Part shown: piece by piece, positions 32,642 through 45,329 of the stretch
Layout of the letters: every line of letters starts with the position of its first letter
How positions within the stretch are numbered: the first letter of the stretch is position 1
Assembly (NCBI GenBank): GCA_947487165.1
Contig: CANKWX010000006.1
Coordinates: 1-64,000 of the forward strand
Length of the DNA: 64,000 nt
Origin: Burkholderiales bacterium
GTDB taxonomy: Bacteria > Pseudomonadota > Gammaproteobacteria > Burkholderiales > Burkholderiaceae_E
Reading direction: 5' to 3'
Position numbers and translations under genes: made by a program
Notes under the pieces: generated by a model
What the model saw: only the letters and a program-made list of their open reading frames with translations
Databases searched by the model: none
What the model was told of the DNA's origin: nothing

Positions 32642-33157
32642 ATGACGCCCCGCTACGGCCTCTTCCGGTGGCTGTATCACATGTGGATTGGCCCGATGCA
32701 TGTGCGAGCGGTGTTCAACCGAGAAGCGTTTTCTCGGATCGAACAGACGATTGCACAGGGCGAGCGAGACCATCATGCCCAGCTGCGCTTTGCGGCCGAA
32801 TCCTCCCTTGGCACCCCAGAGTTGTGGCGTGAAGTCAATGCACGCCAGCGTGCAGTCGATGTCTTCTCCAGCCTGCGGATCTGGGATACCCACGACAACA
32901 ACGGCGTGCTGGTCTATTTGCTGTGGGCCGACCATGCGATCGAAATCGTGGCCGACCGGGGTGCCACGGCGAAGATCGACCCGGCGGTCTGGGAGTCGGC
33001 CTGCGCACAGTTCACCAACGCTTGCCGCGATGGTCGGCATGTGGAAGGCGTGATCTCGGCAATCGATACGATCAACCAGGCACTCGCCAAAGCATTTCCG
33101 TCGGGCGGTATCGACACGCCTGACGAGTTGCCCAACGAGCCCTTGATCCTGCGTTAG
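32642..33157 (+). CDS. Second TPM-domain protein, without a signal peptide
   Basis: The 171-residue protein has a TPM fold (FSRIEQTIAQGERDHHAQLRFAAESS, then VDVFSSLRIWDTHDNNGVLVYLLWADHAIEIVADRG) and no clear membrane span beyond a weakly hydrophobic N-terminus. It completes the lemA-TPM-TPM set seen in many betaproteobacteria. ATG 32642 has no ribosome site; GTG 32621, overlapping the previous gene and preceded by GGAGGAGGGG, is an attractive alternative. Its end overlaps the convergent HEXXH gene by 4 bp. Confidence 0.85.
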   Translation: MTPRYGLFRWLYHMWIGPMHVRAVFNREAFSRIEQTIAQGERDHHAQLRFAAESSLGTPELWREVNARQRAVDVFSSLRIWDTHDNNGVLVYLLWADHAIEIVADRGATAKIDPAVWESACAQFTNACRDGRHVEGVISAIDTINQALAKAFPSGGIDTPDELPNEPLILR

Positions 33158-33678
33158 TGGATGCCGGTGGTGCGTGCCGCGACCGGCGCAATCAGTGCCT
33201 TGGGTCGGGCGAGGATGACCGAACCCACGGCCGGGTTTGTCCGGCTTTCCTGCAATTCGGTATCGATGATTGACTGCGCTGCGGCAAGCGTCGTGCGCCC
33301 GCTCAGCAGTGCAAGGCAGGCCTCGGTATCACGCTCGATGCGATAGCCGGATGACAGCGCTCGGGCAGCTTCGTCCAGTCGCGCCGCGGTATTGTGCGGC
33401 TCGCAGGCCGCGATCTCGGCCCGGAAGGCCTCGACCTCGACTTTGAGCCGATAGGCTCGGCTCAGGTAGTAGCGGGCCATATGTACGATCGCGCCGCCTC
33501 GCCAGAACTGCTTGCAGTGTTCGAGTTCGTGAATCACAGTTGGTCGGTCTGAAGCGAAATCGGACCGGATGATGACGAACACGCCCATGCTCAGGCCGAT
33601 CAGCCGCCCAGGCATCCGCTCGACGGCCAGCACTGGCACTGGCAGGACTTTCCAGAGACGTTCCATCAGAATCTTCAT
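33154..33678 (-). CDS. Putative zinc metallopeptidase-like protein (HELEH motif)
   Basis: I do not recognise a named family for this 174-residue protein. It carries VIHELEHCKQFWRGG, with His50-Glu51-X-X-His54 as in zinc peptidases, and an acidic helix VEVEAFRAE (Glu81/83/88) that could give the third ligand. The first 35 residues are hydrophobic (VLPVPVLAVERMPGRLIGLSMGVFVII), so it may be membrane-associated. It is divergent from the DUF3108 gene and its stop overlaps that of the TPM gene by 4 bp. Proteolytic activity is an inference from the motif alone. Confidence 0.6.
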   Translation of the reverse strand: MKILMERLWKVLPVPVLAVERMPGRLIGLSMGVFVIIRSDFASDRPTVIHELEHCKQFWRGGAIVHMARYYLSRAYRLKVEVEAFRAEIAACEPHNTAARLDEAARALSSGYRIERDTEACLALLSGRTTLAAAQSIIDTELQESRTNPAVGSVILARPKALIAPVAARTTGIH

Positions 33679-33769
33679 GATCGGTCAGCAGCAATTTTCG
33701 TGCCGAGGGTTCGCCGAACGCTGCAAGTGACTGATCCGGAAGAATGTGTGAATTGTCGAGAAAGGTATT

Positions 33770-35053
33770 GTGAAACCGACTGTAAAGAAAACCGACACTT
33801 TCATGGCACGAGTTCGGAGCGCGCCCGAATCGTTCATGGTCCTGCAGGCGTTTTTGGCTGGTACATCGGTCCGGCACGCGACGCGTGGCAGGGGGCACCG
33901 TCTGGCTGCAGGCGGGCTGCTTCTGGTCGTGTCTATGGCACTGCATGCGCTGGTGGTCGTGCGTCTCGCCGGGCAGTGGGGTGGGGCGCCCAGCCTGCCA
34001 ATGAAGGATCCGACGCCGATTCAGATCGTGCTGCTCAAGCCTGATTCACTGCAACGTGAGTTGGCGCCGGCCGCGGCACAGCCAAAGCCCGCAGCCGACG
34101 TTCGCGGTGCGCAGATCGTCCCAGCGTCGAAGACGCCTCGTGCTGCCGCGCCCGCAGCGCTTGATCAGAGCGCATCCTCGGCGATCATGCCGTCGGTCGC
34201 AGTCTTGAACGAGCCGGTGTTGTCAGTAGAGTCGCCGAGCGAGTCAGCGAACTCGGGCGACCCCACAGAGGCGCCTGGGGCGCTGGCGTCGGCCCATTCG
34301 GGGCTGGTTTCAGACCTATCGCCCGAGGGGCTGGCCGTGGGGAATGTACCGATTGAGGCTGGGGCAGGCGCCATTTCTGAGCCGCCGCTGCCAAGCCTGC
34401 CCGGGTCGCGCACTCAGCGTTTCCGAGTTTACTGGGGGGATTTTTCGAAGCAGCAGTCGGTGGCCCGACTCGACTATCGGCTGGTCAACCATGGCGATCG
34501 CTACGAGCTGCGCACCGACGCGCGGGCCGAGGGTCTGATTTCGCTGGTGTATTCGGGCACGCTCAGTCAGGTCAGCGTGGGGGTCCTGGGGCCCAATGGG
34601 CTTGAGCCTGCGCGCTATGCCGAGATCCGCAGCAAGTCCTCTGAGCGGGTAGTCGACTTCGATCGCAAGCTCGGTCAGCTGATGTCGCTTGACGGCAGTC
34701 CGCCCGTGCCGATGCCGGTCGGCACCCAGGACAGGCTGTCGGTGTTCTATCAGCTGGGCCTGATGATGCGTCGCGAACCGTCGATGGTGACCGCCGGGCA
34801 GGTCATCGAGATGCCGGTGGCCTCGATGCGAGCGGTGCAGCGTGAGCGGTTTGTTGTGGTGGGCGAGGAAATGCTGATGGCGCCGGGCGGCCCGATCAGG
34901 ACGCTGCACTTGCAGCGGCCGGTGCCAGCCGGTACCCGCGATCCCCGGATCGACCTCTGGTTGGGGTACGATTTCGAGATGATGCCGGTGCGCCTGCGTC
35001 TTGAAGAGTCGTCCGACCGGGTGCTCGATCAGGTGATCGACCGGGCGGGCTGA
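33770..35053 (+). CDS. TonB-like anchored DUF3108 protein
   Basis: The 427-residue protein starts with a basic segment, one membrane span (LAAGGLLLVVSMALHALVVVRL, about residues 45-66) and TPIQIVLLKP, an arrangement like the N-terminus of TonB. A Pro/Ala/Ser-rich linker follows to about residue 205. From residue about 215 a DUF3108 domain begins (FRVYWGDFSKQQSVARLDYRLV) and ends with IDLWLGYDFEMMPVRLRLEES. DUF3108 proteins are periplasmic or outer-membrane-facing beta proteins of unknown role. GTG 33770 is the longest start; ATG 33803 is an alternative. Confidence 0.8.
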   Translation: MKPTVKKTDTFMARVRSAPESFMVLQAFLAGTSVRHATRGRGHRLAAGGLLLVVSMALHALVVVRLAGQWGGAPSLPMKDPTPIQIVLLKPDSLQRELAPAAAQPKPAADVRGAQIVPASKTPRAAAPAALDQSASSAIMPSVAVLNEPVLSVESPSESANSGDPTEAPGALASAHSGLVSDLSPEGLAVGNVPIEAGAGAISEPPLPSLPGSRTQRFRVYWGDFSKQQSVARLDYRLVNHGDRYELRTDARAEGLISLVYSGTLSQVSVGVLGPNGLEPARYAEIRSKSSERVVDFDRKLGQLMSLDGSPPVPMPVGTQDRLSVFYQLGLMMRREPSMVTAGQVIEMPVASMRAVQRERFVVVGEEMLMAPGGPIRTLHLQRPVPAGTRDPRIDLWLGYDFEMMPVRLRLEESSDRVLDQVIDRAG

Positions 35054-36297: not shown

Positions 36298-36548
36298 GCT
36301 CAGCACGTAGGAAACGTGACATTTGTCATGTCGGTGAAATTTACAGTGGGGCCATTCAGGCGCCGGCTGTGCCTTGAGCCGCTTAAGCTCGGATCTCGGC
36401 TGGTTTGGTGGGGCTGGCGGGTCAGGAAGCGTGTTTTACCATCCGTAAGGATTAGTTTTCGGGATTTGAGGGACGAGCTGCGGGTTTGAGTGTGAATGGG
36501 GCGGGTGGGTTAAACCGGTCGGAGCCTGAATAGTGTGAGTTTTCGCAC
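36298..36548. other. Non-coding stretch upstream of the first PEP-CTERM promoter region
   Basis: No convincing gene lies in this 250-bp stretch. It contains a 12-bp near-palindrome TGACATTTGTCA (36317-36328) that looks like a regulator site, but nothing similar was found before the paralogous gene at 39412. Together with the following 140 bp it forms the 426-bp gap between genes. Confidence 0.4.
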
Positions 36549-36564
36549 GTCGGCGGTTTTTACA
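36549..36564 (+). promoter_or_regulatory. Candidate activator (enhancer) site, PEP-CTERM gene 1
   Basis: GTCGGCGGTTTTTACA matches GTCGGCTGGCTTTACA before the paralogue at 13 of 16 positions. Its start lies 78 bp upstream of the sigma-54 element (80 bp in the paralogue), the usual place for an enhancer-binding protein. Function is inferred from conservation and position. Confidence 0.5.
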
Positions 36565-36595: not shown

Positions 36596-36608
36596 TAATT
36601 TATTGATA
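36596..36608 (-). promoter_or_regulatory. IHF-type site, PEP-CTERM gene 1
   Basis: TAATTTATTGATA is, on the minus strand, a complete match to the IHF consensus WATCAANNNNTTR. It lies between the candidate enhancer and the sigma-54 promoter, where IHF commonly bends DNA, and sits in a strongly AT-rich stretch. Confidence 0.6.
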
Positions 36609-36626
36609 TTTAATGATTTATTTATC

Positions 36627-36642
36627 TGGCACGGCCTGTGCT
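36627..36642 (+). promoter_or_regulatory. Sigma-54 promoter of PEP-CTERM gene 1
   Basis: TGGCACGGCCTGTGCT matches the sigma-54 consensus TGGCACGNNNNTTGCW at all fixed positions except one (G for the first T of TTGC). GG and GC fall at correct -24/-12 spacing. It lies 47 bp upstream of the ATG at 36690. Confidence 0.8.
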
Positions 36643-37301: not shown

Positions 37302-39170
37302 CTACTTCCCCGCGCCCCACGAATCCTTCAGTGTCACCGCCCGATTGAATACCGGCCTGTCTGCTCGGTGCTCAACCCGATCCGCCACAAAGTAGCCATG
37401 CCGTTCAAACTGAAACCGGTCCTCCGGTTTTGCCTGCGCCAGCGACGGTTCCAGATAGGCCTGAACCACCTGCAAGGCCTGTGGATTCAGGCAATCCAGC
37501 GGATTTCGCCCGCCCGCATCAGGGGCGGATTCGGTGAAAAGCCGGTCGTAGATCCGCACTTGCGCCGGCAGGCCATGGCGCACCGACACCCAATGGATAT
37601 TGCCCTTGACCTTGTAGAGGTCGGCCCCGGGCGTGCCCGACTTTGAATCCGGGAAATAGTTGGCCAGCACTTTGGTCACCCGGCCGTCGGCATCCGCCTC
37701 GAAGCCGGTGCACTCGATCACGAAGCCGTAGCGCAGTCGCACCCGGTTGCCCGGAAAGAGCCGGAAAAAGCCCTTGGCCGGCTGGGCCATGAAGTCTTCG
37801 CGTTCGATCCAGAGTTCGCGGGTCAGCGGGAAATGCCGCAGGCCGCGCTCGGGCTGGTGCGGATGGACCGGTGCACTGCAGGCTTCTTCCAGCGACTCCG
37901 GGAAATTCACGAGTTCGAGCCTGATCGGATCGAGCACCGCTGCGGCGCGCGCTGCACTTGCATCCAGATCGTCCCGCAGCGCCTGCTCTAGCACCGCGGG
38001 TTCCACCCATTGGCTGGCCTTCGATACGCCGATGCGCTCGCAAAAGAGGCGAATCGACGCCGGCGTATAGCCGCGTCGGCGCAATCCCACCAGCGTCGGC
38101 ATACGCGGATCGTCCCAGCCGACGACCGATTTCGACTGCACCAGTTCCTGCAGCTTGCGCTTGCTGGTGACGGTGAAGGTCATGTTCAGGCGCGCAAACT
38201 CGATCTGCCGGGGCAGCGGTCGCTGAAAGAATCCGCCTTCGGCCACCCGCTCCAGGATCCAGTCGTAAAACGGCCGATGGTCCTCGAATTCGAGCGTGCA
38301 CAGCGAATGGGTGATGTTCTCGAGCGCGTCCGACAGCGGGTGCGCATAGTCGTACATCGGATAGATCGACCAGGCGTCGCCGGTGCGATGGTGATGGGCA
38401 TGCCGGATCCGATACAGGATCGGGTCGCGCAGATTGATATTGGGCGAGCCCATGTCGATGCGAGCCCGCAGCACATGCGAGCCCTCGGGCTGGCTGCCGG
38501 CGCGCATCTCGCGCAGCAGCGCGAGGCTCTCGTCGGCGGGCCGATCGCGAAATGGCGAGTTGGTGCCCGCTTCGGTCAGGGTGCCGCGGCGCTCGCGGAT
38601 CTGATCGGCAGTCTGCGAGTCGACATAGGCATGACCCGACTGCACCAGGTATTCGGCAAAGCGGTAGAAGTGCTCGAAGTAGTCGCTTGCGTAATAGAGA
38701 TTGGACTCTGGCGTGGTGCCGACCGGTGCGGCGTCCCAGCCGAAACCGAGCCATTTCACGGTCTCAAGGATCGAATCAACGTACTCCTGGTCTTCCTTGA
38801 CCGGGTTGGTGTCGTCAAAGCGCATGTGGCAGCGCCCGGCGTAGTCGATTGCGAGTCCGAAGTTCAGGCAGATCGATTTGGCATGGCCGATATGCAGATA
38901 GCCGTTGGGCTCGGGCGGAAACCGCGTGCGGATCTTCGCCGGATCGATCGCACCATTGGCATGTTGGTCTGCAGTCGTGGGATGGCCGGCCCAGCGGCGT
39001 TGGGCATAGGTGCCGGCGGCCAGATCACTGTCGATCGCCTGCCGGATGAAGTTGCTGGTGCGCGCAGCGCCCTCGGCGTCGGATGAGGCGCCGGGCGAGT
39101 CTTTTGAGGATGTTTTGGGCGATGTAGACACAGGGGAAGGGGGGCGTCGCGTGGGGTGAAAGGGGTGCAA
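37302..39170 (-). CDS. glnS: Glutaminyl-tRNA synthetase
   Basis: GlnRS charges tRNA-Gln. The class I signatures are PPEPNGYLHIGHAKS (HIGH at about residues 93-96) and VTSKRKL (KMSKS equivalent). The body shows FDDTNPVKEDQEYVDSI and the C-terminal anticodon-binding beta-barrels (FFRLFPGNRVRLRYGFVI). The 622-residue reading from TTG 39170 includes about 35 extra N-terminal residues; GTG 39131 is an alternative. A loop around residues 60-80 (HPTTADQHANGAID) is longer than in E. coli. It is embedded between two paralogous PEP-CTERM genes on the other strand. Confidence 0.95.
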   Translation of the reverse strand: MHPFHPTRRPPSPVSTSPKTSSKDSPGASSDAEGAARTSNFIRQAIDSDLAAGTYAQRRWAGHPTTADQHANGAIDPAKIRTRFPPEPNGYLHIGHAKSICLNFGLAIDYAGRCHMRFDDTNPVKEDQEYVDSILETVKWLGFGWDAAPVGTTPESNLYYASDYFEHFYRFAEYLVQSGHAYVDSQTADQIRERRGTLTEAGTNSPFRDRPADESLALLREMRAGSQPEGSHVLRARIDMGSPNINLRDPILYRIRHAHHHRTGDAWSIYPMYDYAHPLSDALENITHSLCTLEFEDHRPFYDWILERVAEGGFFQRPLPRQIEFARLNMTFTVTSKRKLQELVQSKSVVGWDDPRMPTLVGLRRRGYTPASIRLFCERIGVSKASQWVEPAVLEQALRDDLDASAARAAAVLDPIRLELVNFPESLEEACSAPVHPHQPERGLRHFPLTRELWIEREDFMAQPAKGFFRLFPGNRVRLRYGFVIECTGFEADADGRVTKVLANYFPDSKSGTPGADLYKVKGNIHWVSVRHGLPAQVRIYDRLFTESAPDAGGRNPLDCLNPQALQVVQAYLEPSLAQAKPEDRFQFERHGYFVADRVEHRADRPVFNRAVTLKDSWGAGK

Positions 39171-39273
39171 ACCGGCGAACGAACGGCCTGTCTGGAGGCT
39201 GAAGACCGCCGTTGCCCTGATTGTAACGGTGTCGGCGCCATTGCCGCTTGAAGGCGGAAAACGCGGACGAAGT

Positions 39274-39289
39274 GTCGGCTGGCTTTACA
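39274..39289 (+). promoter_or_regulatory. Candidate activator (enhancer) site, PEP-CTERM gene 2
   Basis: GTCGGCTGGCTTTACA is the counterpart of the 16-bp element at 36549 (13 of 16 identical). It starts 80 bp upstream of the sigma-54 element and 48 bp upstream of the IHF-like site (78 and 47 bp in gene 1). Confidence 0.5.
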
Positions 39290-39321
39290 CAGGTCGAGGC
39301 TTGGCCGGGGGGCGATGTTTC

Positions 39322-39334
39322 TAAGTGGCTGATT
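39322..39334 (-). promoter_or_regulatory. IHF-like site, PEP-CTERM gene 2
   Basis: TAAGTGGCTGATT matches the reverse IHF consensus YAANNNNTTGATW with one mismatch (C for the first T of TTGAT). It begins 32 bp upstream of the sigma-54 element, against 31 bp in gene 1. Confidence 0.4.
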
Positions 39335-39353
39335 TTGTGATTTATGTCACGGC

Positions 39354-39369
39354 TGGCACTGCGTTTGCT
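39354..39369 (+). promoter_or_regulatory. Sigma-54 promoter of PEP-CTERM gene 2
   Basis: TGGCACTGCGTTTGCT fits the sigma-54 consensus TGGCACGNNNNTTGCW with a single mismatch (T for G at position 7). It starts 58 bp upstream of the ATG at 39412; gene 1 has 63 bp. Confidence 0.82.
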
Positions 39370-39411
39370 CTGAGCGGACAGGCTTCTCGAAAAACTCAAA
39401 CGGAGTATCAA

Positions 39412-39966
39412 ATGTTCAATCAAGGAATTCTGTCACGTTCGATCGCAGCGATTGGCCTGTCGCTTGCTGCGATGTCGGTTGCGCAAGCCGCCCCCATTTC
39501 CGGTTCGGCGTCCTTTACCGGCTTTGCGACCCCGAATCCTACGGTCCTGACCTGCACCGCAACCCCCTGCTTGGTTACCAACTGGACGGGTCTGGATTTC
39601 CCCTCAACCAACCCTAATGCTTTTTACTCCGGTACAACTGGATCATTTCTGTCGATCATGGGCGCCTCTGGAACAGCGACCTTTTCTGACACCAGCTTCG
39701 CTGCGCCTGGCCAACTCTTCACCGGTGGTGGCGTGACCTTCACATGGACGACTGTCTCCAAGTCCTACGACGGAACGACCTGGGGTGCTGTGTTTTCGGG
39801 CACTGCGACCGCTGCAGGCTACGATGCGACGATGATGAAGCTGTCGTTCTCGAGCCAGGGCGCAGGCACCAGCTGGTCGGCTGAAACGATCCCGGTTCCC
39901 GGCACCATCGCCCTTCTGGGCCTCGGTCTGGCTGGTCTGGGTCTGATCCGCACCCGCCGCGCCTGA
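39412..39966 (+). CDS. PEP-CTERM sorting-signal protein 2 (paralogue)
   Basis: The 184-residue protein is a clear paralogue of the one at 36690, sharing NWTGLDFP, PNAFYS, DGTTWGA, MKLSFSSQGAGTSWSAET and the sorting tail. A signal peptide covers residues 1-26 (cleavage after VAQA). The C-terminal signal is IPVPGT (about 160-165), hydrophobic IALLGLGLAGLGL and basic RTRRA. Cys48 and Cys53 match Cys46 and Cys51 of the paralogue and could form a disulfide. GGAG precedes the ATG by 8 bp. A longer GTG-started frame from 39325 runs through the sigma-54 promoter and is rejected. A strong terminator follows. Confidence 0.88.
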   Translation: MFNQGILSRSIAAIGLSLAAMSVAQAAPISGSASFTGFATPNPTVLTCTATPCLVTNWTGLDFPSTNPNAFYSGTTGSFLSIMGASGTATFSDTSFAAPGQLFTGGGVTFTWTTVSKSYDGTTWGAVFSGTATAAGYDATMMKLSFSSQGAGTSWSAETIPVPGTIALLGLGLAGLGLIRTRRA

Positions 39967-44947: not shown

Positions 44948-45026
44948 GTGCACCAACCGATCCGACCGACTCGCGATGAAGATGCCACCGATACTGGATC
45001 TCGACGATCAACTGTCCCCCGGGACA

Positions 45027-45329
45027 ATGACCAAGTCGGAACTCATCGCCAGATTGGCTGAGCGTTATCCGCAACTTGTGGCCAAAGACGCCGAGTTCGC
45101 GGTCAAGACCATCCTTGATGCCATGGCCCGCACGCTGGCCGATGGGCATCGCATCGAAATCCGCGGTTTTGGCAGTTTTGCGCTGTCGCATCGACCACCG
45201 CGTGTAGGCCGCAACCCCAAGTCGGGTGCGCGGGTCGACGTGCCCGAAAAGCGCGTGCCGCATTTCAAGCCCGGCAAGGACCTTCGCGAGCGGGTCGACA
45301 TCCGCGCCCGTACCGACGGCGAGTCCTGA
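45027..45329 (+). CDS. ihfB: Integration host factor subunit beta
   Basis: IHF-beta pairs with IHF-alpha to bend DNA at specific sites. The 100-residue protein starts [17 protein letters not shown] and shows the family signature [24 protein letters not shown] with the DNA-intercalating proline region, ending [13 protein letters not shown] 45027 is used; an in-frame ATG at 44976 would add 17 residues unlike the family. IHF is likely used at the sigma-54 promoters of this window. Confidence 0.95.

Follow-up and report, generated by a model that had tools for sequence, protein, structure and literature searches.

The repeated element at position 36549 of the window (the whole 64,000-nt stretch of a Burkholderiales contig analyzed here) is in all likelihood a PEP-CTERM box, an enhancer site predicted to be bound by PrsR within an IHF-assisted, helix-phased sigma-54 promoter. 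Such boxes are believed to activate genes for surface proteins in bacteria that form flocs and biofilms. The element itself is already known; the phased spacing of box and promoter and the IHF-like architecture go beyond the 2006 text in which it was described, and they are the part that deserves specialist attention. Together, the position of the box in helical turns, the IHF-like site and perhaps a second regulator amount to a promoter grammar that can be tested, for a regulon linked to flocculation and to the surface proteins of biofilms.

We propose that PrsR, phosphorylated by PrsK, would occupy the box as dimers and then assemble an ATPase ring. PrsR would contact RNA polymerase and sigma-54 waiting at the -24/-12 promoter 62 to 64 nt downstream, a promoter predicted to depend on sigma-54 in this organism. 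IHF, if bound between box and promoter, would bend the short spacer and allow the contact; because a spacer bent in this way must bring PrsR to the polymerase, the box would be expected on one face of the helix. As a result, several PEP-CTERM surface proteins would be expressed in concert. A grammar that is rigid across the whole order, and absent from the available 2006 text, is a serious possibility that we rate somewhat below even. Under such a grammar, IHF would bind ~18 nt ahead of the -24 element, and the PrsR box could shift outward only by whole helical turns (~11 bp). In the window's genus, a CRP-family regulator would adjoin the box or the promoter as a second input, and the PrsR regulon would reach a conserved gene outside the PEP-CTERM family, the HELEH gene at 33154-33678.

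The PEP-CTERM box in the window and its genome

The 16-mers GTCGGCGGTTTTTACA (36549-36564) and GTCGGCTGGCTTTACA (39274-39289) are found where the first-pass annotation had placed them, and direct comparison bears out the agreement at 13 of 16 positions that it gave. The core that it derived from them, GTCGGC-N6-TACA (2 occurrences in the window against 0.03 expected from shuffles), holds in its GTCGG and TACA parts. Its sixth base does not: just 7 of 26 exact non-redundant boxes have C there. Immediately ahead of GTCGG, 25 of these 26 boxes have T or C. The core is therefore better written as YGTCGG-N5-TTTACA, with a length of 17 nt. Exact copies of GTCGG-N5-TTTACA number 8 in the 3.78-Mb genome, compared with 1 for the reversed pattern, and 7 of the 8 are located upstream of PEP-CTERM genes. 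A genome search yielded 18 PEP-CTERM loci, 17 of them over the cut-off. The box is exact at 6 of the 18, present within one mismatch at 7 and within two at 8; the other 10 loci have no box within two mismatches. A looser version of the first-pass core, GTCGGCNNNNNTTACA allowing one mismatch, was rejected as unspecific, because it has 75 matches in the genome and its reversed pattern has 72.

Motif discovery over the upstream regions of PEP-CTERM genes, including those of relatives, had been suggested as a check on the element, and a blind count of four-letter dyads singled out the same sequence. Among 48 upstream regions (18 from the window's genome and 30 of 154 matches in nine relatives), GTCG-N7-TTAC ranked first, with occurrences in 21 of the 48 versus 0 of 48 control stretches, and the best of any dyad in ten shuffled sets of 48 upstreams reached 6 to 8. 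The count also recovered the sigma-54 dyad TGGC-N8-TGCT in 11 of the 48 upstreams. With up to one mismatch, the box is present in 20 of 48 upstreams versus 1 of 960 shuffled ones.

Besides the two boxes of the first-pass annotation, the window has copies at 36330 (plus strand) and 33781 (minus strand) (Table 1). Within 110 nt, the distal box at 36330 lacks its own promoter. Its distance from the proximal box is 219 nt in the window, 218 nt in G002 and 217 nt in G005 (where the proximal box has one mismatch), and the DNA directly ahead of it is also well conserved in two same-genus genomes. No frame of at least 80 codons runs across the box at 36548-36564, and the frame that covers the box at 39273-39289, a mechanical one of 132 codons on the minus strand (39025-39423), was taken as no gene. 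A 622-codon minus-strand frame between the two PEP-CTERM genes is, judged by eye, presumably that of a glutaminyl-tRNA synthetase.

Table 1. Positions of the boxes, promoters, IHF-like sites, dyads and genes in the window
Feature	Positions	Strand	Evidence and remarks
PEP-CTERM box of gene 36690, 17-nt form CGTCGG-N5-TTTACA, CGTCGGCGGTTTTTACA	36548..36564	+	pattern; 15/17 in three genomes
IHF-like site, exact match, YAANNNNYTGATW on + strand	36596..36608	-	6/13 in three genomes
sigma-54 -24/-12 promoter TGGCACGGCCTGTGCT	36627..36642	+	62 nt past box, 47 nt to ATG; 10/16 in three genomes
PEP-CTERM protein gene, 182 aa	36690..37238	+	PF07589 25.1 bits (cut-off 20.7); TIGR02595 over cut-off
Distal second PEP-CTERM box TGTCGGTGAAATTTACA	36329..36345	+	281 nt ahead of promoter; 15/17 in three genomes
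CRP-like dyad GTGACATTTGTCAT adjoining distal box	36316..36329	.	12/14 in three genomes
Weak CRP-like dyad GTGAGTTTTCGCAC adjoining proximal box	36535..36548	.	9/13 in three genomes over 36535-36547
PEP-CTERM box TGTCGGCTGGCTTTACA of gene 39412	39273..39289	+	16/17 in three genomes
IHF-like site TAAGTGGCTGATT, exact consensus match	39322..39334	-	9/13 in three genomes
CRP-like dyad TGTGATTTATGTCACG between IHF-like site and promoter	39336..39351	.	12/16 in three genomes
sigma-54 -24/-12 promoter TGGCACTGCGTTTGCT	39354..39369	+	64 nt past box, 42 nt to ATG; 15/16 in three genomes
Paralogous PEP-CTERM protein gene, 184 aa	39412..39966	+	PF07589 21.1 bits (cut-off 20.7); TIGR02595 over cut-off
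PEP-CTERM box GTCGGTTTTCTTTACA of third box-promoter pair	33781..33796	-	exact at corresponding place in two further genomes
sigma-54-like promoter CGGCACGAAAATTGCT	33690..33705	-	75 nt past minus-strand box
IHF-like site GATCAGTCACTTG, 1 mismatch	33724..33736	-	consensus scan
Gene with invariant HELEHCKQFW, candidate non-PEP-CTERM regulon member	33154..33678	-	12 sequences compared
ihfB, IHF beta subunit	44976..45329	+	NF001222 (NCBIfam) 154.4 bits, cut-off 115

The first-pass annotation knew of no described operator with this sequence, but the element had been described by Haft et al. 2006 (PMC1569441). The available parts of that article report a 17-nt motif 1 that has TTTACA at its 3′ end and is sometimes repeated. 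It is followed by a sigma-54 motif 2 at a mean distance of 62.8 nt (s.d. 10.6, range 32 to 92), which in turn lies 23 to 221 nt (mean 71) from the start codon. Of 167 proteobacterial PEP-CTERM genes, 99 had the motif upstream; PrsR, PrsK and PrsT are the matches to its phylogenetic profile, and PrsR was proposed as the activator. The window boxes have the same length and the same 3′ TTTACA. Each stands in noncoding DNA upstream of a PEP-CTERM gene, and a sigma-54 motif (GG at -24, GC at -12) follows at 62 and 64 nt, close to the published mean, with distances to the ATG that fall inside the published range. A repeat copy is present at 36330, and the genome has PrsK, PrsR and PrsT. GTCGG has no match in the available text of PMC1569441; the assignment to motif 1 is based on the 3′ TTTACA, the length, the position and the context, and by these features the window element fits as a new copy of the published box. 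The difference is that the spacing is quantized here and an IHF-like site recurs at particular distances from the promoter, whereas the available text gives a mean and a range, has no match to "IHF" or "integration host", and contains "helical" once, in a reference title.

For the pepA gene of Aquincola tertiaricarbonis, the available parts of PMC9850573 report a mapped -24/-12 promoter, dependence on RpoN1 and a "previously predicted enhancer sequence" upstream. The background given in PMC9012009, as far as available, is that loss of PrsK or PrsR leaves Zoogloea resiniphila planktonic and that its PEP-CTERM gene or genes are under the control of RpoN and PrsK-PrsR. In these bacteria the regulation by RpoN and PrsK-PrsR is experimental, whereas in the window's organism it is predicted from sequence.

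Phased spacing and IHF-like sites

In sigma-54 promoters of the NtrC and NifA type, the activator site lies upstream, IHF binds between it and the promoter, and activation depends on the face of the helix; the aid that IHF gives to sigma-54 activators is textbook knowledge. The NtrC site, like the PEP-CTERM box, has 17 bp in a 6-N5-6 layout. Unlike these enhancers, the PEP-CTERM box is asymmetric (TGTCGG versus TTTACA). We also take it to be unlike the NtrC consensus, and its distance from the promoter to be shorter than in classical enhancers.

From the loci compared, 57 pairs of box and promoter with a spacing of 50 to 115 nt were chosen by limits on mismatches and promoter score, and 17 redundant pairs (including one with a spacing of 106 nt) were dropped. 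The spacings of the 40 non-redundant pairs are 62 to 66, 72 to 76, 83 to 86 and 96 to 98 nt, plus one of 115 nt, which is out of phase. A larger set came from a joint pattern, consisting of the box, a gap of 50 to 111 nt and TGGCAY-N6-TGC, which matches 106 times across the order's 399 genomes, compared with 1 match for the reversed pattern (both gap ranges). To make the test independent, 12 matches from the previously examined genomes G000, G029, G037 and G039 were left out, which gave 94 pairs in 56 further genomes. Their spacings are 50 to 55 (12 pairs), 61 to 65 (44), 73 to 76 (13), 82 to 87 (14), 94 to 98 (10) and 105 nt (1); thus, 93 of the 94 fall into five clusters, with none in between. 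The best period is ~11.0 nt (resultant 0.78), and 0 of 2,000 sets jittered by up to 5.5 nt were as periodic, in a set that includes promoters from related genomes and is not fully independent. Read plainly, these spacings would require the activator to bind on a single helix face as seen from the promoter.

The IHF consensus WATCARNNNNTTR is matched exactly, in reverse orientation, in both window spacers, where the matches end 18 and 19 nt ahead of the promoter. With up to one mismatch, it occurs in 24 of the 40 spacers (shuffle mean ~5, with 0 of 100 shuffles reaching 24) and in 60 of the 94 (shuffle mean ~15, with 0 of 100 reaching 60), the latter scan covering only the first 64 nt of long spacers. 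The reversed consensus is present in 6 of the 40 spacers, a count reached by 15 of 100 shuffles.

The matches recur at particular distances. In the 40-pair set, 16 of the 24 end 17 to 20 nt ahead of the promoter, with eight exceptions (L110, L161, L094, L080, L123, L122, L118 and one site of L160). The distance from the box to the IHF-like site is 31 to 33, 41 to 45, 53 to 54 and 66 nt at spacings of 62 to 64, 74 to 76, 83 to 84 and 98 nt, respectively; the IHF-like site thus tends to stay with the promoter when the box is further out. Of the 60 match starts in the larger set, 29 lie 30 to 34 nt ahead of the promoter in reverse orientation and 13 lie at 19 to 20 nt in forward orientation, followed by 5 at 30 to 31 nt (forward), 5 at 42 to 43 nt (reverse) and 8 elsewhere. 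At the window match at 36596, which keeps 6 of 13 positions in three genomes, G002 has an exact match of its own at the same place. A literature search retrieved no paper that, judged by its title, deals with IHF at PEP-CTERM promoters (the titles concerned Geobacter expression and fruit-fly gut symbionts).

A separate feature of some spacers in the window's genus is a stretch around GCCCAGAGC, common to L005, L008, L068, L090, L091, L097, L103 and L148. L008 and L091, which were kept in the non-redundant set, have no IHF-like match within one mismatch. The stretch could be the site of a further protein, or it could mark a promoter cassette that spread recently.

PrsR and the alternatives

The genome carries ihfB and a tandem prsK-prsR-prsT (G000:C9), whose products score 587, 696 and 355 bits, with prsK and prsT clipped by the ends of the searched locus. 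Across the 399 genomes of the order, 60 have box and promoter together, and PrsR is over the cut-off in 54 of these 60 versus 46 of the 339 others (Fisher's test, p ~5e-32, kinship ignored). This co-occurrence, together with the position 62 and 64 nt ahead of the promoters, the blind dyad search and the conservation within the genus, supports the first-pass proposal of a PrsR-type enhancer site. The joint pattern appears to be a sharp predictor of PrsR targets, perhaps including genes for proteins other than PEP-CTERM proteins.

The exact box alone is a weak marker of PrsR and was set aside: among 41 relatives, 53 boxes fall in 16 PrsR-positive genomes and 41 in 25 PrsR-negative ones, with reversed controls of 19 and 20. 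With G001 and G003 set aside, the PrsR-negative genomes have 27 boxes; 16 of these were inspected, and in none of the 16 does a sigma-54-like site within 110 nt or a PEP-CTERM gene follow. Three boxes of G029, outside those 16, do have a promoter, and promoterless boxes also occur in PrsR-positive genomes (e.g., L056, L063 and L067). An exact box-promoter pair is missing from 46 of the 100 PrsR-positive genomes of the order.

Two genomes of the same genus carry 8 (G001) and 6 (G003) boxes, yet neither has a PrsR that passes the cut-off. PrsR is present, and no exact box was found, in G009, G010 and G011 (same genus) and in G016 (same family). The mismatch between G009, G010 and G011 on one side and G001 and G003 on the other is due either to assembly gaps or to drift of the recognition sequence.

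That the similarity of the two elements is a mere leftover of a duplication of gene and upstream region is very improbable. The genes are clear paralogues (380 of 537 coding nucleotides identical, 71%), and box, promoter and gene follow in the same order; the flanks of the boxes, however, agree at only 24 of 100 positions upstream and 14 of 60 downstream (ungapped, in the register of the box), which is the chance level. The divergence of the surrounding DNA noted in the first-pass annotation is thereby confirmed, conservation of the flanks equal to that of the element is absent, and duplication as the sole cause is ruled out. In the upstream regions of three same-genus genomes, the boxes at 36548-36564 and 39273-39289 are identical at 15 and 16 of 17 positions, compared with 0.41 and 0.48 outside features, and the motif also stands before other PEP-CTERM genes and was found blind in the 48 upstreams. 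Two same-genus genomes keep the boxes in the corresponding upstreams, one with a mismatch. The C-termini of the proteins behind the corresponding promoters differ, and the genes therefore may not be strict orthologues. We regard a functionless chance match as scarcely credible. By itself the pair is unexceptional, because 53 of 300 shuffles of two 260-nt upstreams also yield a match at 13 of 16 positions. The remaining matches of this quality in the upstreams of genes 36690 and 39412 fall on the sigma-54 promoters and on AT-rich DNA that separates box from promoter. What sets the pair apart is the register to the promoter that both boxes share, together with the evidence from other genomes; the genome-wide excess, the blind discovery and the same-genus conservation equally argue against chance.

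The binding of an NtrC-type activator other than PrsR to the box seems improbable. The genome does have other such activators that score below the PrsR cut-off, and 6 of the 60 genomes with a box-promoter pair have no PrsR match over the threshold, but the enrichment of PrsR among those 60 genomes and the identity of the profile matches reported in the available text of PMC1569441 (PrsR, PrsK and PrsT) both point to PrsR. We also consider it unlikely, though well worth weighing, that the IHF-like stretch is an AT-rich or intrinsically bent spacer or an HU site, with IHF uninvolved. The consensus is degenerate, short and loose, and even with one mismatch allowed it is missing from 16 of the 40 and 34 of the 94 spacers. 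Against this, dinucleotide shuffles do not reach the observed number of matches in either set, the count of the reversed consensus is unremarkable, and the positions ahead of the promoter recur in both orientations, as described above.

A third box-promoter pair and a CRP-like dyad

The minus-strand box at 33781 is followed by a sigma-54-like promoter and then by the gene of a 174-aa protein. HELEHCKQFW, invariant in 12 sequences of this protein, is a possible metal site. The protein has no Pfam or NCBIfam family, and its AlphaFold2 model (mean pLDDT 80) has no PDB match at E <= 0.001; these searches speak against a known fold or family for it. Across 11 related loci of the gene, the promoter is kept in 10, and the box is exact in 2, has one or two mismatches in 7 and is absent from 2, with the limits that one boxless locus has only ~140 nt of upstream DNA and that the two loci with an exact box are seemingly on the same contigs as earlier relatives. 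Because the promoter is kept in 10 of 11 loci and the box is exact in 2 of 11, the HELEH gene looks sigma-54-driven in nearly all related loci and PrsR-driven in part of them. The HELEH protein of CAMCXH010000069.1 (L153, a contig of a metagenome-assembled genome, titled Bordetella parapertussis) is 91% identical to that of the window, and the species label looks doubtful.

A second dyad, GTGAC-N4-GTCAY (GTGACNNNNGTCAY), accompanies some of the boxes. With up to two mismatches, it adjoins the box, its last base being the one that precedes GTCGG, in 8 of 40 promoters, all in the window's genus, compared with a maximum of 2 in 500 shuffle runs. The similar dyad at 39336-39351 has one mismatch. 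Genome-wide, 34 matches fall at 25 places, with 9 perfect dyads counted once per strand, versus 8 matches for the reversed pattern; 4 of the 25 places adjoin a box, and one of those 4 boxes carries two mismatches. Our guess from the shape of the dyad, set beside the TGTGA-N6-TCACA form of CRP/FNR-family sites, is that a CRP-family protein may act there. Dyads of similar form, GTGACGAAAGTCAC, are present away from PEP-CTERM loci at G000:C18:44904 and G000:C35:21366 and may mark further targets of the putative second regulator.
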